This document shows positions 42,599 through 53,215 of a stretch of 64,000 nucleotides of DNA, in pieces (position 1 is the first letter of the stretch; every line of letters starts with the position of its first letter). Both the position numbers and the translations under genes were made by a program. The DNA comes from Bowdeniella nasicola (GTDB taxonomy: Bacteria > Actinomycetota > Actinomycetes > Actinomycetales > Actinomycetaceae), in NCBI RefSeq assembly GCF_001907295.1, contig NZ_MQVR01000003.1, forward strand, positions 1 to 64,000. Reading direction: 5' to 3'. The notes below the pieces were generated by a model. It made no database searches, was not told the origin of the DNA, and was given only the letters and a program-made list of their open reading frames with translations.

Positions 42599-43117
42599 GT
42601 GAGATCCGAGTTACAGGTACGGCCCATGACCGTTGCGGACGCCGCGGCGGTCGCCAAAATCCATGTGGCGGCATGGCAACACGCCTACCGGGGGTTGGTC
42701 TCGCAGCGCTTTCTCGATTCGCTGTCGATCAGCGAGCGGACCGCGAAGCTCACGCGCTCGCTGCGCCAGGTCGGTCCCGTGCGCACGATCGTCGCCGAAA
42801 GTGACGGCCAGGTCGTCGGGTTCGCGACCGTCGGCCCCGCCCGCGATGAGGATTCTTCCACCGACGACGCCGAACTGTTCGCGATCTATGTCGATCCGGC
42901 CCGGGTCCGCCTGGGCGCCGGGCGCGCGCTGCTGTCGCGCGCGAAGGAGGTCGCCCGCGAGATGGGCTGTCGGCGCATGATCCTGTGGGTTTTGAAGGAC
43001 AATGCGAGCGCCCGGGCGTTTTATAAGCGGTGCGGGATGCGCCAGGAGGCCACTCGCGGGACCTCCACCATTGCGGGCGATGATTTCGTCAAGATGAAGT
43101 ACTCCGCGCGGCTCTAG
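42599..43117 (+). CDS. GNAT N-acetyltransferase
   Basis: A 172-residue single-domain acetyltransferase. Motif A is LFAIYVDPARVRLGAGRALLSRAKEVA (shown by IYVDPARVRLGAGRALL, about residues 98-114), and the C-terminal block WVLKDNASARAFYKRCGM is typical. Substrate unknown. The start codon is GTG. Its TAG stop shares CTAG with the convergent helicase gene. Confidence 0.92.
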   Translation: MRSELQVRPMTVADAAAVAKIHVAAWQHAYRGLVSQRFLDSLSISERTAKLTRSLRQVGPVRTIVAESDGQVVGFATVGPARDEDSSTDDAELFAIYVDPARVRLGAGRALLSRAKEVAREMGCRRMILWVLKDNASARAFYKRCGMRQEATRGTSTIAGDDFVKMKYSARL

Positions 43118-46100
43118 TCGGCGAGCAGGCCGCGCACGTCCTCGGCGGTGAGGGCGCCGCTGCCGAACTCGGAGCCGTCGCCGATGACATCGTCGAAGAG
43201 CTGGCGTTTACGCTCCTGCAGGGCGAGGACTTTTTCCTCGATCGTGTCGGCCGCGACGAAGCGGTAGACGTTGACGGACCGGGTCTGGCCGATGCGGTGG
43301 GTTCGGTCGACGGCCTGTTCTTCGACGGCGGGGTTCCACCACGGGTCCATGAGGAAGACGTAGTCGGCCTCGGTGAGATTGAGGCCGAAACCGCCCGCTT
43401 TCAGCGAGATGAGGAAGACCGGGACGTCGCCGGCGCGGAAGCGTTCGATGACCTCGGCGCGGCGGCGGGTCGCGCCGTCGAGGTAGCAGTAGTCGATGCC
43501 GGCCGCCTCGAGTTCCTGGCGCACGAGTGCGAGGTAGCTCGTGAACTGGGAGAAGACGAGCGCGCGGTGGCCCTCAGCGGAGATTTCCAGCAGGTTGCGC
43601 AGTAGTGTGCGGGTCTTAGCCGACGCGGCCGAGGGTTGGGAGGCGGTCGCGGGCGCGGTGTCGTCGCCCGGGGACAGGCGCACGTCGAGCGCGAGGCGGC
43701 GCAGGATGGTGAGCGAGCGCAGGATAGCGACGCGGTTTTTCTCGGCGTCGTCCAGCAGCCCGAGGACGCGCTGGCGTTCGAGCTGGAGTTGTTCGTCGTA
43801 GCGGCGGCGGTGGGCGGTATCGAGCTCGATCATCGCGACCTGGTCCTGTTTTTCGGGCAGCTCGGCAGCGACCTGGTCCTTGGTGCGGCGAAGGAGGAAC
43901 GGGCCGACGAGGCGGCGCAGCTGGGCACGGCGTTCGTCGGCGACCTCCGCACCCGCCTCGATGGGTTTTTTGAAGCGGCGCTGGAACTGCTTGAGCGTGC
44001 CGAGCAGGCCGGGGGCAGTGAGCGCGAACATCGCCCACAGGTCGGTCAGCGAGTTTTCGAGTGGCGTGCCGGTGACAGCGATGACGAGGTCGGTCGGAAT
44101 ATCACGCAGCGCCCGGAATGTTTTGGAGCCCGGGTTTTTCACGAACTGGGCTTCGTCGATGATGATCGCCGAGAATTTCCGGGCCGCGAGCTCGTCGGCG
44201 TCGATACGGGCGAGCGCGTAGCTCGTGACGATGACGTCACTGGCCTTGGCAACGGCGGGCAGGTCGAGGCCGGAGGCGGACGCGGATTTCGTTATCGGGG
44301 CGATCGATAGGTCGGGCGTGAAGCGGGCGGCCTGTTCGACCCAGCCGCCGACGACGGAGGTGGGCGCGACGACGAGGACGGGCGCGTCGAGCAGGCCGTC
44401 GGCCTTCGCGATGGCGATAGCGGCGAGCAGCTGGAGGGTTTTGCCGAGGCCCATGTCGTCGGCGAGGACGCCGCCGAGGCCCAAACGCCACAGGTGCGTC
44501 GCCCAGGCGACGCCGCGTTCCTGGTAGTCGCGCAGTTCGGCGTGCACGGTCGAAGGCAGCTCGATCGTGGCGTCGGCCTCCCCGAGGCTGAGGCCCGCGA
44601 GCGTCTGCATGCGCTCCACCCAGGTCACGGTGCGTTCGTCGTCGATGCCTCCAATCTCGTCGAGCGCTTGGGCGGCTGCGATGTCGAATGTCGAGACGGA
44701 CAGCTGGCCGCGGCCCGAGGACGTGCGGGTTTGCAGGTCGCGGGCGGATTCGATGAGCGTGCGCAGCGGGTAGAGGCTCGGGTGGTCGAGCGCGATCCAC
44801 TTGCCCGATGCGAGGTGGAGCGTGGCGGCGCCGGAGGCGAGCGCGGCGAAGAGCGCCTCGAACGGGACGCGTTCGCCCGAGACGGTGACGTCGATGTCGA
44901 GGTCGAGCCAGCCCTTGGCCTGCGTCGGCACCTTCGCCTCGGTGCTCGCGCGCCCGCCGATGGCGACGGTGGGGACGGAGGCGTCGGCGTCGGGGGTCGC
45001 GACATCTACGTCGCCGACCTCGACGTCGTCGTGGCCGGAAAGGAAATCGAGCAGTTCGGTCGCGACCGTGCGGACTTCGCTCGCACCGACGATGCGGCGG
45101 CGCCAGTGGCCGTCCATGCCCTCGCCGGGTTCGGGCAGCAGGCGCGCGAGGCGGCGCGGGGCCGCGGCGCGCAGTCCGGTGAGCAGGTCGCCGCCGAGCT
45201 CGGCCGCGATCTCGTCGTCGAGGCTGGGATCGGACAGGCGCCAGGACAGCTCGACGGTCGGGTGCGCCGCGGCGATGGAGGTGGCAGTGACGGCCAGGCG
45301 CGGGCGGACGAGGTCAGGCAGGTCGACGGTGTCGTCGCGCGAGGTGACGCCGACGTGCAGGGCGAGGCGCGGCAGTTCGCGGCTGAAAAACCGGGCGATG
45401 CCGGTGCGTGGGACGTGGCGGCGGCCGGCGGCGGCGAGGTCGCGGACCTCATCGATCGCGGCGCGCGCCAGCGGCAGCAAGATCGCGCCCGCCTTGTCGA
45501 GGACGAGCACGCCGTGCATCGGGTCGCCGAGCGGGATGAGGCGGCTGCCCGCGGCAGGGTGGTCGCCGATCGCCAGGCGCACGTCGAGGCCGTCGTCGTC
45601 TTGGTGGAGGTCGACGACGGGCGCGGACGGCTCGGCGGCCAGGGTGAGTTCGGCGTCGGCGAGGCCGGAGCCGGGAACGAAGACGACGCCCGCCTCGTGC
45701 GCGGCGATCAGCGGCGGCCAGACGCGCGCGCTTAAACCATCGAGTTGGACGCGCCGCGAGCCGTAGGCGTAGACCTCGCGGCGGGCGAGGAGGAAGACCT
45801 GGTAGAGGTCGAAGATCGCGTCGGACTGCTCCGTCGTCGCCCACCGCGCGCCCGCGGGGTCGGTGAACGCTTCCCAGCTGTTGCCGGAGGTGAGCCATTT
45901 GCTGCCGACGCGGCGCACGGGCCGGACCTCGACGTGGTCATCGGGCGTGAGCGAGAATTCCAGGCCGACGCGGGCCCGGCTCGCGCGCGCGGGCGCGAGC
46001 GCGCGCGAGGGCTTGGCGTCCAGCAGCGTCGGGGCATCGGGTTGCGGGGCTGGGGCCGATCCCCCGGTTTCGCAGGCCTCCGCGGTCGCGATGAGCGCCG

Positions 46101-46389
46101 CGAGCGCGTGGATGCAGGGCTCGTCGTGCCGGTCACTGCCATCGCAGCTGCAGTGGCTGACGAGCGTGTTTCCGTCGTAGGTGAGGCGCACGTTTTCGAC
46201 GCTGCGGTGCAACAGCGGGCGGATCGTCGCCATGATCGTCGCGCCGTCATCGGAGACGACGAGCATGCGGACGCGCTCGTCGGTCGCGGTGGCGCGGGCG
46301 CGCTGGACATCGTCCTCATCGGCAAGGGTGGAGTAGGAATCGGTAGCGAACTGTCGCGTCCAGGTGGCGCGGTTGGCTCCGATTCTCAT
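43114..46389 (-). CDS. SNF2/RapA-type helicase with SWIM zinc finger
   Basis: A 1091-residue ATP-dependent DNA/RNA translocase. The N-terminal SWIM zinc finger is SHCSCDGSDRHDEPCIHALAA (CxCx(n)CxH, about residues 80-99). The helicase core starts near residue 630 with ADDMGLGKTLQLL (motif I), IIIDEAQFVKNPGSKTFRAL (motif II), AVTGTPLENSLTDLW (motif III), and in the second RecA lobe VFSQFTSYL, LISLKAGGFGLNLTEADYVF and AVDRTHRIGQTRSVNVYR. The order SWIM then SNF2 is typical of actinobacteria; a role in transcription or repair is assumed. TATCCT lies 6 nt before the ATG. Confidence 0.94.
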   Translation of the reverse strand: MRIGANRATWTRQFATDSYSTLADEDDVQRARATATDERVRMLVVSDDGATIMATIRPLLHRSVENVRLTYDGNTLVSHCSCDGSDRHDEPCIHALAALIATAEACETGGSAPAPQPDAPTLLDAKPSRALAPARASRARVGLEFSLTPDDHVEVRPVRRVGSKWLTSGNSWEAFTDPAGARWATTEQSDAIFDLYQVFLLARREVYAYGSRRVQLDGLSARVWPPLIAAHEAGVVFVPGSGLADAELTLAAEPSAPVVDLHQDDDGLDVRLAIGDHPAAGSRLIPLGDPMHGVLVLDKAGAILLPLARAAIDEVRDLAAAGRRHVPRTGIARFFSRELPRLALHVGVTSRDDTVDLPDLVRPRLAVTATSIAAAHPTVELSWRLSDPSLDDEIAAELGGDLLTGLRAAAPRRLARLLPEPGEGMDGHWRRRIVGASEVRTVATELLDFLSGHDDVEVGDVDVATPDADASVPTVAIGGRASTEAKVPTQAKGWLDLDIDVTVSGERVPFEALFAALASGAATLHLASGKWIALDHPSLYPLRTLIESARDLQTRTSSGRGQLSVSTFDIAAAQALDEIGGIDDERTVTWVERMQTLAGLSLGEADATIELPSTVHAELRDYQERGVAWATHLWRLGLGGVLADDMGLGKTLQLLAAIAIAKADGLLDAPVLVVAPTSVVGGWVEQAARFTPDLSIAPITKSASASGLDLPAVAKASDVIVTSYALARIDADELAARKFSAIIIDEAQFVKNPGSKTFRALRDIPTDLVIAVTGTPLENSLTDLWAMFALTAPGLLGTLKQFQRRFKKPIEAGAEVADERRAQLRRLVGPFLLRRTKDQVAAELPEKQDQVAMIELDTAHRRRYDEQLQLERQRVLGLLDDAEKNRVAILRSLTILRRLALDVRLSPGDDTAPATASQPSAASAKTRTLLRNLLEISAEGHRALVFSQFTSYLALVRQELEAAGIDYCYLDGATRRRAEVIERFRAGDVPVFLISLKAGGFGLNLTEADYVFLMDPWWNPAVEEQAVDRTHRIGQTRSVNVYRFVAADTIEEKVLALQERKRQLFDDVIGDGSEFGSGALTAEDVRGLLAD

Positions 46390-46435: not shown

Positions 46436-46927
46436 CTACTGGCCGATGCTCGTGAAGGCGGCGATGCAGACGCCCGCGAAGACGATCGGGCTCAGCGCGA
46501 AGATAATCAGCCAGCCGATCGCGAAGCGTCGCCACTTGGCGATGAACAGCAAAATGATGGGCGGCACCAGCACGACCGCCATGACCTCAAAGAGCATGAG
46601 CGATTCGAACCGGTCGATGGCAAACGCGATGAGGGTGACGATCACGGTCCACAGCAGGCCCGCGAGCATGCCCCAGCCGGGGCTGCGGCCGATCTTTTCC
46701 ATCCGCGTGAGGTTCGTCGGCTCGACATAGCGTTGCAGCGGGTCGGTGGCCCCGGTGTACTCATACGGGTTGCCGGAGGTCGGGTGTTGGGCCGGCTGGT
46801 CCGGCGGTGGCTGCTCGGTTGGTTGCTGGCCGGCCGGTGGGGTCGTCGGGGCAGGGTCCGGCGGGGCGAACGGATCGAAATCCGGTTCGCCCGAGCTCTC
46901 CGGCGGTCGCCAGTTCTGATCGCTCAT
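46436..46927 (-). CDS. Membrane protein with proline-rich N-terminus
   Basis: A 163-residue protein. The first 75 residues are rich in Pro, Gln, Asp and Glu (FDPFAPPDPAPTTPPAGQQP), then RYVEPTNLTRMEKIGRSPGW and three hydrophobic helices (GMLAGLLWTVIVTLIAFAI, a second at VMAVVLVPPIILLFIAKW, a third at WLIIFALSPIVFAGVCIAAF). No defined family. The ATG has GGGAGGT about 6 nt upstream. It starts 3 nt after the preceding stop, so it is the last gene of the Lgt-like / radical SAM operon. Confidence 0.78.
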   Translation of the reverse strand: MSDQNWRPPESSGEPDFDPFAPPDPAPTTPPAGQQPTEQPPPDQPAQHPTSGNPYEYTGATDPLQRYVEPTNLTRMEKIGRSPGWGMLAGLLWTVIVTLIAFAIDRFESLMLFEVMAVVLVPPIILLFIAKWRRFAIGWLIIFALSPIVFAGVCIAAFTSIGQ

Positions 46928-46930
46928 GAG

Positions 46931-47254
46931 CTACCTCCCAAAAAGTTCTCCGACACTCGTTCCGGTGATCGACATGATGATGCCGACGAGGGCGACGATG
47001 CCGAGAAGGCCAAGATACGCGAGCACGAGGCGCGTGTCCCGCAAATAGCATTTCGACCGCGTCAGTCCCGCGCGGCGAGCGCGAGCGTAGGCGGCGAACC
47101 CGAGGGCGGCGAAGACGAGCAGCGCCCACGGGCCAAACAGCCAGCCGAGCGCCGCGACCGTCGTGTAGATACACAGCCGCAAGGGGTCGAAGGGCTCATC
47201 CTTACGCATGGCCGCGATCTCTTCGTGCCACGGCGGCGTCGTGTTTTGGGTCAT
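46931..47254 (-). CDS. Small membrane protein coupled to the radical SAM gene
   Basis: A 107-residue protein. A polar N-terminus with PWHEEIAAMRKDEPFDPLRL precedes three hydrophobic stretches (IYTTVAALGWLFGPWALLVF, the following GFAAYARARRAG turn, and LVLAYLGLLGIVALVGIIMS). No recognised family. The ATG at 47254 overlaps the radical SAM stop (ATGA) and has GGAGGAG at good distance, so translation is coupled. It may anchor or assist the enzyme at the membrane, but that is inference from position. Confidence 0.75.
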   Translation of the reverse strand: MTQNTTPPWHEEIAAMRKDEPFDPLRLCIYTTVAALGWLFGPWALLVFAALGFAAYARARRAGLTRSKCYLRDTRLVLAYLGLLGIVALVGIIMSITGTSVGELFGR

Positions 47255-48837
47255 GATCTCCTCCCGGTAGCCGTCGACAGGCGTGAGTTCGACAGCGGCC
47301 CCCACGCCTGGACCGCGCAAAACGGCGCGCACTGGTGCGCGTCTTCGGCCGATTTCGTCCCGACATGCACGCAGCACTGCGTGAGGCGTTCTTCGAGCAT
47401 CGTCGAGATATCCATAAACGGTTTGACCGTGATACGCACGACGCGATCGGCGAGCAGCGCCCGCATCCGAGCGCGGCCGCCCGGCAGTTTTCCGGCGGCG
47501 AGCGTCGCCATCGTGGAAATCCCGAGGTCGCAGGCGGTGCACACGTCGCGCCACGCGCTTGTGAGCGAGGGATGCGTGAGTGAGTTCTGTTCCGAGAGCA
47601 GATCCAGCAGCGAGGACTTCACGGTCTCTTTCAGCTGTTTCGGAATCTCGGCGTCGGCGATGCGGTTAGCGAGCAGGTCGGGTTCGAGGTCGAGCCAGGC
47701 CTTCAGCTGGTCGTGGCCCATGATCGTGGTCAGCGAGCGCCACACGCCCGCGTCGTCCTTCAACAGGTACCCGACTGACGCGCAGTGCGGGTGGGAGCAC
47801 GGCAGGGCGGTCAGGTCGCGCCAGGTAACACGGCCGCCGGTTTGCGCATCGAGCCGTTTCAGGACGCCGGTGTGGGTGAGACGGTTCATGGGGTCGATAC
47901 CCGTCGAGCGGCCCGAGCCGAAGACGGGCTGGATCGCCACGCCCCCGATATAGGGGGTGTCGAGTGCGCGGGTCACGACGTGACCGATTTCCTCGTCGTT
48001 CACGCCGAGTGCGGCCGTCATCGTGAGGGTGACGAAGACGCCGGCGCCGGTGAGGCGTTCAATCGCGCGGTCCTTCATCGCGCGCAGGTCACCGCCGCGG
48101 TGGTGGCGCGAAGCGTGTTCGGAATTCCCGTCGTATTGCAGATAGATCTCGACGCGCTCGCGGTGTTGTTCTAACAGGGCAAGGAGACCGTCGTCCTGGG
48201 AAAGACGCAGCCCGTTGGTGTTGACCATGATCCGCGTGATCGGGCGGGCGGTGACCGCCTCGAGCAGTTCGGCGAGCTCCGGGTAGAGCGTCGGGTCGCC
48301 GCCGGAGAGCATCAGGACGTCGAGGTGGTTGTTCTCGCGCGACAGCCGCGTGTCGATATTTCTGAGGATCTCAGCAAGCGGCGCGACCGCGGCGAGCTGC
48401 GGGGAGGAGGAGACGAAACACGTCGGGCAGCGCAGGTTGCAGTGGTCGGTGATGTCTTCGAGCAGGATGCACGTGTGCTGAGTGTGGACTTCGGGCAGGC
48501 CGTAGGCGAAGGCCTCAGGCATCGGCAAGAAATTGCCGGAAATATCGGGCATATGAACCTTCGTCGGCGCGGTCCACTGTTCGAGGTAGGCGAGGATCTC
48601 GGGGTCCTCGTCGTACAGGGTGCGCACCCAGCCGTGGGTGCGGCAGGCTCGCTCGAGCCAGACCTTCCCGTCGCGCACCGACAGCCAGCCCGACAGGCGC
48701 TCGACGTCGGCCAGGGGACGGTTCGGGTCCTCGTCGTGGCAGTGGGGGCAAAAGGCGTTGACATAGCGGTGGATGCGGTCGCCCCGCAGCGGCATCCCGG
48801 CGCTGTGACGCCGAACCCCTGCTGTACGGATCGCCAT
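47251..48837 (-). CDS. Radical SAM protein resembling tetraether lipid synthases (Tes/MJ0619-like)
   Basis: A 528-residue enzyme. The N-terminus has CPHCHDEDP (Cys30, Cys33) and VWLERACRTHGW (Cys65), a rubredoxin-like set. The radical SAM motif is DHCNLRCPTCF (Cys133, 137, 140), followed by LMLSGGDPTLYPEL (SAM binding) and IMVNTNGLRL. Further cysteines lie in ALPCSHPHCASVGYLL, VCTACDLG, QCCVHVGT and HQCAPFCAVQAWG, enough for extra Fe-S clusters. This cysteine layout resembles the archaeal tetraether lipid synthase family, which couples lipid chains by radical chemistry. It sits 9 nt behind an Lgt-like gene. A lipid substrate is plausible but unproven. The start may be at Met1 or Met15. Confidence 0.7.
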   Translation of the reverse strand: MAIRTAGVRRHSAGMPLRGDRIHRYVNAFCPHCHDEDPNRPLADVERLSGWLSVRDGKVWLERACRTHGWVRTLYDEDPEILAYLEQWTAPTKVHMPDISGNFLPMPEAFAYGLPEVHTQHTCILLEDITDHCNLRCPTCFVSSSPQLAAVAPLAEILRNIDTRLSRENNHLDVLMLSGGDPTLYPELAELLEAVTARPITRIMVNTNGLRLSQDDGLLALLEQHRERVEIYLQYDGNSEHASRHHRGGDLRAMKDRAIERLTGAGVFVTLTMTAALGVNDEEIGHVVTRALDTPYIGGVAIQPVFGSGRSTGIDPMNRLTHTGVLKRLDAQTGGRVTWRDLTALPCSHPHCASVGYLLKDDAGVWRSLTTIMGHDQLKAWLDLEPDLLANRIADAEIPKQLKETVKSSLLDLLSEQNSLTHPSLTSAWRDVCTACDLGISTMATLAAGKLPGGRARMRALLADRVVRITVKPFMDISTMLEERLTQCCVHVGTKSAEDAHQCAPFCAVQAWGPLSNSRLSTATGRRS

Positions 48838-48846
48838 AGCCGAAGC

Positions 48847-49599
48847 CTACTGGAGGGCCGGTGCGGGCCGCAGCAGCGAGTCGTAGGTGCCGCGGCGCGC
48901 CTGGTAGGTGATTCTGGCGAGGATGATGGGGATCGTCACCGCGAGGACGAGCTGCGGGCGGGTCAGGCCCGCGAACGCAATCTCGTTGCCGCGCACGAAT
49001 TCGACGAAGAATCGGAAGATCGCATACCCGGCGATATACAGGACGAAGGATTCCCCGGGTGCGGTCAGTCTCTTCCGCACGAACCACCACAGCAGCGCGA
49101 AGGCGAGCGCGTGGAAGACGATCTCGTAGACGAAGCTCGCGTGCAGCGCGGCCCCGTCGGGTGCGTCGAACCGGGCCGCTGCGGCGGGATCGAGCGTGAG
49201 GCCGATGCCGCACACCCCGTTGCTCGCGGCGCAGTTCGCCCCGAGCGCGCACATGGGGCAGGGGGTGCCTGGCGTTTCGGTCAAGAGGCAAGCGACGCGG
49301 CCGACGGCCATCCCGGCGGCGACCGCGGGGGCGAACAGGTCGCCGGTGCGGTGCCGGTAGCCGGTGAGCCGTTTTGTCACGTGTACGCCGAGCCAGGCGC
49401 CGAACAGACCGCCGATGATCGAGCGGTTGCCGTAGGCCCACTGCTCGGCGAGGGTCGCGTTATCGCGCAAGTCGGCGTGCTGCAGCCACGTCCCCAGGCG
49501 CATGAAGATCGCGGCGACGGTAACGCCGACGCCGACAAAGAAGGCGTGGGTGTCAATCGGCAGGTTGATGGCGAGGAGGTCACCGAGCGTGGGGAACAT
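48847..49599 (-). CDS. Lgt-like (prolipoprotein diacylglyceryl transferase family) membrane protein
   Basis: A 250-residue protein with seven hydrophobic segments in the Lgt pattern: GNRSIIGGLFGAWLGVHVTK, then FAPAVAAGMAVGRVACLLTE and, near the end, FVLYIAGYAIFRFFVEFVRG. In true Lgt the GR is followed by xGNFxNxE; here it reads GRVACLLTE, so the conserved Asn residues are replaced, and the catalytic His of the first motif is not evident. It also has a Cys-rich loop (TPCPMCALGANCAASNGVCG). It is probably not the housekeeping Lgt. The ATG at 49599 has GGAGG 5 nt upstream. It is the first gene of the operon with the Tes-like radical SAM enzyme. Confidence 0.82.
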   Translation of the reverse strand: MFPTLGDLLAINLPIDTHAFFVGVGVTVAAIFMRLGTWLQHADLRDNATLAEQWAYGNRSIIGGLFGAWLGVHVTKRLTGYRHRTGDLFAPAVAAGMAVGRVACLLTETPGTPCPMCALGANCAASNGVCGIGLTLDPAAAARFDAPDGAALHASFVYEIVFHALAFALLWWFVRKRLTAPGESFVLYIAGYAIFRFFVEFVRGNEIAFAGLTRPQLVLAVTIPIILARITYQARRGTYDSLLRPAPALQ

Positions 49600-49716: not shown

Positions 49717-51822
<2,106 letters not shown>

Positions 51823-51829
51823 GCGCCCC

Positions 51830-51835
51830 ATCGTA
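51830..51835 (-). promoter_or_regulatory. -10 box (TACGAT) of leaderless peptidase gene
   Basis: TACGAT, seven bases, then the ATG at 51822. Confidence 0.4.
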
Positions 51836-51844
51836 AGGGTCGAG

Positions 51845-53215
51845 CTAGGACTCCCGCATCGCTTTTTGCGGAGCGCTAACACCGACGTCCCACCTCGGGT
51901 CAGAGGAGACGCCCTTCGCTACGAGCGCTGAATCGGCCGCGAGCGGGGTCCGCGGCTTCGGGTAGCGTCGGTCCTGCTTCCACCAGGGCATATGCCCGAC
52001 GTAGCCATCGACGGGCGGCTGGGGACTTGCCGGTTCGAAGCCGAGCTCCTGCGGGGTCTCCTTGATCATGTCGGTGAGCCAGTACTTGTCGGCGTCATCG
52101 GCGTGCTGCTTCACGACCGTCTTAAACTCGCTCATTTCGAAGTACAGGCAGTTCGTGAGCGGGTTCCGCTTCGTGGCCTTGATCTTGTAGACCCAGTAGA
52201 TGAACAGCGCGACGTTTGCGATGAGTGCCGCCCAGGCGCACACGATGTTTGCGGTCGGGTTCATCGTCGCGTAGTTCGTCATGCCGCTCGGGATCACGAG
52301 GAATTCGGGCAGCAGGTTATTCGCGGAGATCCAAAAGACGAGGGTGAAGCACCTGAACCAGATCCACTGGCCCTTGGCCCACGTGAACGCCGGAATCGTG
52401 CAGGCGAGCAGCAGCGCGAGCGTGCAGTACCAGGTGTAGTCGGCGAGCGAGTTGTAGAGGAACGCGTGGTTCCACAGGTCGTAGGCGATGACCCAGGGCC
52501 AGACCATGTCGACCCAGATCAGGCCGCGCACCTTCTGCTTGCCGGGCGAGCTGACAAAAATCTTTCCGAGGCCCGTGATCGTGATGATGTTGAGCAGGCC
52601 CGCGAGCGCCGACAGCAGGTTCCAGTAGCCGCCGATCGTGCGGAAGCCGGTCGCGGGATCGATGCCGACGCCGGCCGCATGGAAGTTCGCGGCGACGGCC
52701 GCGTACCAGGCGTCGGAGTGCAGCGGTGCGCTCACACCGCGCGTCTCGGGAAGGCCGTTGAGGACGTCGACCGAGCGGCCCGCGTTGATGCCCTTCAGGC
52801 ACTCCGGATCGGCCGCGCACGCGTAGTAGTTATCGGCCTCGAAGAAGATCGCGAGGTCGCGGATATTCGCTTCCATGATGTTCACGGCGAGCCCGATCCA
52901 GAGGGCAACGCCGAGCCAGATCGCATAGCGGTGCGCCTTGTTGGGATGGCGCTTGCCGTAGACGAGGAGGTAGCCCGTCATCGTGGCGGTCGCCAGCATG
53001 ATGACGAACTTGCCGAAGGGGAACCACCCGACCATGGGAGTGCCGTGGATAGCCGCATACGGCAGGGCGATGATGCCGCCAACCGTCCAAATGGCGAAGA
53101 TCGTCCAGTTCCAGCGCCGATTGATCTCGGCGATCGCGACCTGAGCAACAAAAACGAGGATCCAGGCAAAGTAAACCAGCGGGGTGCCTGTCTCCCACAA
53201 GAAAAGCGACGACAT
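51845..53215 (-). CDS. DUF5692-family membrane protein (copy 1)
   Basis: A 456-residue polytopic membrane protein with about ten hydrophobic segments. It shares with the protein at 54515-55585 the order of helices and the conserved blocks VNIMEANIRDLAIFFE / NIIEAVIRDFQC, a GGYWNLLSALAGLLNIITI block, WVIAYDLWNHAFLYNSLADY, LLLACTIPAFTWAKGQWIWF and a cytosolic TKRNPLTNCLYFEMSEF tail. Compared with copy 2 it has an extra loop with cysteines (YYACAADPECLKGINAGRSV) and a longer C-terminal tail. The family has no known function. It is divergent from a START-like gene and has a palindrome at 53272-53287 upstream. Confidence 0.75.
   Translation of the reverse strand: MSSLFLWETGTPLVYFAWILVFVAQVAIAEINRRWNWTIFAIWTVGGIIALPYAAIHGTPMVGWFPFGKFVIMLATATMTGYLLVYGKRHPNKAHRYAIWLGVALWIGLAVNIMEANIRDLAIFFEADNYYACAADPECLKGINAGRSVDVLNGLPETRGVSAPLHSDAWYAAVAANFHAAGVGIDPATGFRTIGGYWNLLSALAGLLNIITITGLGKIFVSSPGKQKVRGLIWVDMVWPWVIAYDLWNHAFLYNSLADYTWYCTLALLLACTIPAFTWAKGQWIWFRCFTLVFWISANNLLPEFLVIPSGMTNYATMNPTANIVCAWAALIANVALFIYWVYKIKATKRNPLTNCLYFEMSEFKTVVKQHADDADKYWLTDMIKETPQELGFEPASPQPPVDGYVGHMPWWKQDRRYPKPRTPLAADSALVAKGVSSDPRWDVGVSAPQKAMRES

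Follow-up and report, generated by a model that had tools for sequence, protein, structure and literature searches.

A conserved actinobacterial gene cassette pairing an Lgt-like protein with a Tes-like radical SAM enzyme

Why is a diverged relative of prolipoprotein diacylglyceryl transferase (Lgt) encoded next to a radical S-adenosylmethionine (SAM) enzyme resembling tetraether lipid synthase (Tes)? The question is raised by four packed minus-strand genes, lgtL, rSAM, tm3 and tm4 in this order, at positions 46436-49599 of the window, which is the whole stretch of 64,000 nucleotides analyzed here (contig NZ_MQVR01000003.1). A sequence-only reading of this DNA had proposed that a lipid-handling membrane protein and a lipid-coupling radical enzyme act together on an unusual membrane lipid or a lipid-modified product. 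The partnership of the two proteins is supported by the data presented here, while an unusual lipid or lipid-modified product is what we infer from them. The answer that we put forward tentatively, as possible rather than probable, is that the Lgt-like enzyme may lipidate the Cys of a C-terminal G-x-C motif in tm4 and that the radical SAM enzyme may alter the lipid, with tm3 as a partner.

A conserved accessory cassette of Actinomycetota

A search of species-representative genomes with the radical SAM protein yielded 80 loci (63-88% identity) from many actinobacterial genera, among them Arthrobacter, Sinomonas, Microbacterium, Leucobacter, Ornithinimicrobium, Micropruina, Nocardia, Mycobacterium/Mycolicibacterium, Dactylosporangium and Nonomuraea; the closest named relative of the window protein is that of Bowdeniella nasicola (88% identity). 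Gene order, strand and distances were compared for the 77 loci in which both lgtL and rSAM were recovered. The cassette genes share one strand in all 77, at least four gene orders occur (lgtL-tm4-rSAM-tm3, rSAM-tm3-lgtL-tm4, tm4-lgtL-rSAM-tm3 and lgtL-rSAM-tm3-tm4), and the flanking genes vary from lineage to lineage. Pairwise distances of the radical SAM and Lgt-like proteins are correlated (0.96), part of which is explained by shared ancestry.

Two surveys of gene content confirmed the linkage of the Lgt-like partner that the sequence-only reading had wanted to see traced through gene neighborhoods. Among 396 genomes of the phylum, the radical SAM clade (at least 55% identity, remaining matches at most 38%) was found in ten, and the Lgt-like clade, which is set off from ordinary Lgt by a score gap from E 2e-53 to 2e-39, in exactly those ten; tm3 was detected in seven of the ten and in none of the other genomes. 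Among 163 mycobacterial genomes, 42 contain rSAM (split in one of them), and all 42 contain the Lgt-like gene. The Lgt-like gene was found without rSAM in three, namely as a partial fragment with a stop, as a copy at a contig edge and in a genome that is 70% complete. Since the two genes co-occur in both surveys, we conclude that lineages acquire or lose them as a pair. The locus is a conserved accessory cassette of three or four genes, scattered among Actinomycetota, with an Lgt-like/radical SAM core inherited as one unit; only this pair is universal, tm3 and tm4 each being absent from some cassettes. Taken together, the conserved clustering and the near-perfect co-occurrence strongly support a functional pairing of the two proteins. 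No description of the cassette was found in the open-access literature, subscription papers being outside this search.

One locus, L103, lies on a contig of a Gemmatimonadaceae metagenome-assembled genome and reads lgtL-rSAM-tm3 (63% identity), with no tm4 found; it reflects either horizontal transfer or mis-binning.

In the window, the coordinates (Table 1) agree with the tight packing described before: lgtL and rSAM are separated by 9 nucleotides, rSAM and tm3 overlap by 4 nucleotides (ATGA), and tm3 and tm4 are separated by 3 nucleotides. A GGAGG sequence is located directly upstream of the lgtL start codon (ATG at 49599).

Table 1. Cassette features in the window (counts of loci refer to the 77 compared).
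Feature	Position	Strand	Remark
lgtL, Lgt-like membrane protein	48847..49599	-	Pfam LGT 2.1e-22
rSAM, Tes-like radical SAM enzyme, 528 amino acids	47251..48837	-	Pfam Radical_SAM 3.4e-20
tm3, small membrane protein with two invariant Cys	46931..47254	-	70/77 loci
tm4, putative lipid acceptor, C-terminal FAGVC motif	46436..46927	-	family in 75/77 loci
Codon of tm4 Cys154, invariant G-x-C Cys	46466..46468	-	9 residues from C-terminus

Directly downstream of the cassette, a SWIM/SNF2 helicase is encoded at 43114-46389 on the minus strand, for which a consistent linkage was not seen in the other loci. Upstream lie a peptidase-like gene (49717-51882) and, beyond it, a gene for a DUF5692 membrane protein (51845-53215, minus strand, 1.6e-60). 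A defence or phage origin of the cassette was considered and rejected, the matches being to generic radical SAM proteins and viperin only.

The radical SAM protein and the Lgt-like protein

The radical SAM protein carries an N-terminal zinc-ribbon domain beside the Radical_SAM domain (Pfam). The rubredoxin-like cysteines, the CxxxCxxC cluster motif and the extra C-terminal cysteine sets noted from the sequence were all found, and they are invariant in 54 homologues. This holds for the rubredoxin site CX2C..CX2H (C30, C33, C65, H68), for the radical SAM motif CX3CX2C (C133, C137, C140) and for the C-terminal sets, the further motifs being PCSHPHC and CxxC, both invariant as well, and CC..CAPFC.

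A sequence comparison with the PDB gave Tes as the best match (7tol, E 6.5e-34, residues 10-508). An AlphaFold model matches 7tom/7tol over the whole chain (E 1.2e-19), while the next matches cover mainly the radical SAM core; the model has a mean confidence (pLDDT) of 64 and weak Cys regions and was used at the domain level only. With archaeal Tes (GDGT-MAS, MJ0619) the cassette protein shares the order of a rubredoxin-like, a radical SAM and a C-terminal Cys domain, the rubredoxin and CX3CX2C ligands and the C-terminal CC..FC set. It differs in being bacterial, with an Lgt-like protein and small membrane proteins as neighbors, in its additional PCSHPHC and CxxC motifs and in the loss of features that define Tes. 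The ligands of the N-terminal auxiliary [Fe4S4] cluster of Tes are C73, C77, C80 and a His (PMC9433317); these cysteines are missing from the cassette clade, in which CPYDCGLC is replaced by AYGLPEVHTQHTC. Equivalents of Met439 and Tyr459, reported as invariant in 1000 archaeal homologues, are missing too (RLTQCC and PFCAVQ versus VMRCC and PFCTYN), where the match for Met439 is a reading of the alignment and the Tyr position, which the aligned 7tol sequence does not quite reach, was read from relatives (PFCVYN).

The best curated NCBIfam match is TrsS, a radical SAM (seleno)protein (NF045646, 197.7 bits, cut-off 490), and Tes (NF045702) scores 154.4 bits with a cut-off of 450. A PC-x-x-P-x-C type site and the CC..FC set are common to the aligned TrsS/Tes-like relatives and the cassette protein, whereas the CPxDCGxC auxiliary motif kept by these relatives has been lost from the cassette clade. 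In the tree this clade is supported by 100/100 and sits on a long stem, the long branches leaving the deep joins uncertain. Membership in Tes or TrsS is rejected on cut-offs, motifs and tree, and the protein, judged by its sequence, is an enzyme of Tes-like architecture in a separate clade and not a Tes. The resemblance to tetraether synthase claimed earlier therefore stands for fold and domain order and fails for the Tes-defining features, and the profile comparison suggested for this protein names Tes as the best solved relative and TrsS as the best curated model, both below their cut-offs. The catalytic architecture of Tes is reported to be retained in the bacterial membrane-spanning lipid synthase Mss (PMC13274423). 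Other actinobacterial Tes/TrsS-like proteins (L113-L116, L118 and L119) score nearly the same with both NCBIfam models (about 300-355 bits), below both cut-offs, and may form further subfamilies.

The Lgt-like protein scores above the cut-off of the Pfam LGT family; with the lgt equivalog model TIGR00544, the window copy, which carries a deletion, reaches 58.8 bits and stays below the cut-off of 118.9. The AlphaFold model of a complete Bowdeniella orthologue (pLDDT 82) has the Lgt fold, with 5azb as the sole significant Foldseek match (E 8.1e-5). The altered signature motif GRVACLLTE and the Cys-rich loop that had drawn attention to this protein are both real, the loop being limited to the Bowdeniella-type clade among the sequences aligned. 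Residues Y26, H103, R143, N146, G154 and R239 are absolutely required in Escherichia coli Lgt, and the phosphate of phosphatidylglycerol is held in position by R143 and R239 (PMC13251419). Of these, R143, G154 and R239 are kept in the Lgt-like proteins, as are E151, Y235, E243 and R246, and the other three are changed in every cassette member examined (Y26 to H, H103 to I, L or V with I in the window copy, N146 to C); the E. coli reference sequence of this comparison agrees with the 5azb alignment. The His, Arg pair, Cys and Glu positions are invariant in 41 Lgt-like sequences. Because positions 103 and 146 are not fixed in some other Lgt proteins, N146C being found there too, the changed residues do not prove a loss of activity; loss of H103 as sole proof of inactivity was dropped for the same reason.

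A separate housekeeping lgt, whose presence had been proposed as a check, exists on another contig of the same genome (C57) with a full score of 280 bits, and a housekeeping role for lgtL was rejected. The Lgt-like protein could still be an ordinary second lipoprotein Lgt of shifted specificity, encoded beside a radical SAM enzyme that makes a non-lipid cofactor or metabolite, as other members of the Tes/TrsS group may. The ranking of TrsS before Tes among the curated models and the occurrence of N146C elsewhere fit such a role, as does MSMEG_5408, the second Lgt homologue of Mycobacterium smegmatis, which has Y26H and N146C and for which low Lgt activity is presumed (PMC13251419). By this published description it shares both changes with the cassette family, and mycobacterial genomes carry the cassette. 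However, independent functions do not predict that the pair is lost and gained jointly, and a full-scoring lgt is already present, so that we consider an ordinary second Lgt improbable. Two loci from MSMEG_5408, MSMEG_5406 of M. smegmatis shows a 9-fold drop on zinc depletion (PMC7174638).

The small membrane proteins tm4 and tm3

Two points go beyond the sequence-only reading: a deletion of 29 codons in lgtL, treated below, and the G-x-C motif of tm4, which is the most informative part of the cassette. Neither tm3 nor tm4 of the window gave a match above cut-off in the Pfam/NCBIfam profile scans, and tm4 is an undescribed family of small membrane proteins. Its members are present in one to three copies, often in tandem; the Pro-rich N-terminus is variable, and about three segments are hydrophobic. 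In the C-terminal 75 residues of a 21-sequence alignment, two Gly and one Cys are the only invariant positions and remain so while identity drops to about 16-50%. The C-terminal Cys is present in 104 of 106 copies with Gly at -2 in 100, followed by a tail with a median of 9 residues (5-16 in nearly all), and in 76 copies the core contains no other Cys; since some of the sequences counted also went into the family profile, these numbers and that of the loci in Table 1 characterize the family and are no test of it. As an independent control, GxC was found in only 3 of 79 proteins that have a C-terminal helix and are encoded near but outside the cassette, one of the three being a likely missed tm4.

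A hydrophobic stretch precedes the Cys, the region before the last helix has a net positive charge (+2.5) and the tail is mostly uncharged. By the positive-inside rule, the Cys would probably be located at the outer end of the last helix and face outward, the side to which the active site of Lgt opens. Further unlinked tm4-type proteins were looked for in the genome of the window, and none was convincing. In G217, a cassette genome from another family that gave no tm4 match, a different, DUF2510-like single-helix protein ending in LLFGACLALLSG is encoded directly before lgtL instead.

Two Cys are invariant in 73 tm3 sequences, in the motifs DPLxLC and SxCxLxDTRLV, which flank a hydrophobic segment; in the window they are residues 28 (DPLRLC) and 69 (SKCYLRDTRLV). 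The tm3 loop has a mean net charge of +6 in these sequences and is thus probably cytosolic.

Such proteins could also be the substrates of the radical SAM enzyme. It would then modify tm3 or tm4 by peptide or Cys chemistry, in the manner of ribosomally synthesized and post-translationally modified peptides (RiPPs), and the Lgt-like protein would lipidate the product. Small variable proteins encoded in cis and often in tandem are in line with this, as are the conserved SxCxLRDTRLV loop of tm3 on the probable cytosolic side and the existence of RiPP-lipoprotein hybrids elsewhere (PMC12636315). We nevertheless regard protein modification as distinctly unlikely: the closest solved relative of the enzyme is a lipid enzyme and no peptide maturase, several mycobacterial cassettes keep rSAM without tm3, and no leader-like core region was recognized in the variable N-termini.

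Alternatively, the cassette could serve lipids alone, with the Lgt-like protein presenting or moving the diacylglyceryl part of phosphatidylglycerol and the radical SAM enzyme coupling or altering acyl chains to yield a cross-linked or membrane-spanning lipid. Here tm3 and tm4 would be structural or redox helpers and their Cys ligands or disulfides, which the two invariant Cys of tm3 would suit. The Tes-like fold, the phosphatidylglycerol-binding residues kept in the Lgt-like protein and the cassettes without tm4 also point this way. Such a pathway leaves unexplained why the invariant feature of a variable and often duplicated protein should be one Cys at the outer end of a helix, and Met439 and Tyr459 of Tes are lost; we think it unlikely.

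Proposed mechanism and its meaning

The mechanism that we tentatively prefer, lipidation of tm4, would proceed as follows. On the cytosolic side, the radical SAM enzyme would introduce a radical change (e.g., a C-C bond) into the donor lipid's acyl chains, and tm3 would be its partner in the membrane. The Lgt-like enzyme would use phosphatidylglycerol, or phosphatidylglycerol remodeled by the cassette, as donor and transfer the diacylglyceryl group to the G-x-C Cys of tm4 at the outer face of the last helix, resulting in a membrane protein with a special lipid near its C-terminal end. This is supported by the match of the radical SAM protein, over nearly its whole length in sequence and fold, to the lipid-coupling enzyme Tes, by the Lgt fold with the phosphatidylglycerol-positioning residues R143 and R239, and by the conservation of the tm4 Cys with Gly at -2, the charge pattern and the rarity of GxC in the control proteins. 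The co-occurrence of lgtL and rSAM, their shared strand, the correlated distances of their products and the protein encoded before lgtL in G217 also speak for it. We infer that the radical SAM enzyme more likely alters lipid than protein. The proposed modification may be likened to that of DAG-RiPPs, ribosomal products with diacylglyceryl lipidation (PMC12636315), in which the usual lipoprotein pathway modifies an N-terminal lipobox Cys and an MNIO acts as the tailoring enzyme, whereas the candidate Cys of the cassette is C-terminal and the Lgt-like enzyme dedicated.

Several observations weigh against this mechanism. The small residue of tm4 is located at -2 and not at -1 as in the classical lipobox, and three residues that E. 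coli Lgt requires (Y26, H103 and N146) are changed. The radical SAM protein is without equivalents of Met439 and Tyr459 and without one Tes cluster, so that the Tes reaction is not to be assumed. What weakens the model most is that residues essential in the best-studied relatives are lost from both enzymes, whose chemistry may therefore differ from that of Tes and Lgt. Furthermore, the radical SAM enzyme, being cytosolic, and the Lgt site, which faces outward, would lie on different sides of the membrane, and tm3 is absent from several mycobacterial cassettes that keep rSAM. Since tm4 was not found in some cassettes, namely in L103 and the f61 genomes, the protein acceptor is not universal; the tm4 profile misses cassettes from outside the class, and inspection of L175, L176 and L103 revealed no tm4 equivalent. 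Finally, judged against its nearest relatives L024 and L005 (the latter from another genome of the genus), lgtL of the window has an in-frame deletion of 87 nucleotides near its 5' end (29 codons, TM1-loop-TM2), which fuses the first two transmembrane segments, TM1 and TM2; this copy may be non-functional, or the deletion may be an assembly fault.

The more far-reaching form of the proposal, a dedicated bacterial system for C-terminal Cys lipidation of integral membrane proteins in which a diverged Lgt attaches a lipid remodeled by the radical SAM enzyme, possibly cross-linked or membrane-spanning, to the G-x-C motif, is rather doubtful at present. If true, it would mean that bacteria have, besides the classical lipoprotein pathway acting on N-termini, a C-terminal diacylglyceryl lipidation, and the many unassigned bacterial Tes-like enzymes would gain a first protein-lipid context. 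The cassette gives candidate genes in culturable actinobacteria, such as Arthrobacter, Microbacterium, Nocardia, Nonomuraea and mycobacteria, and for the second Lgt homologue of M. smegmatis it suggests an idea that can be tested.

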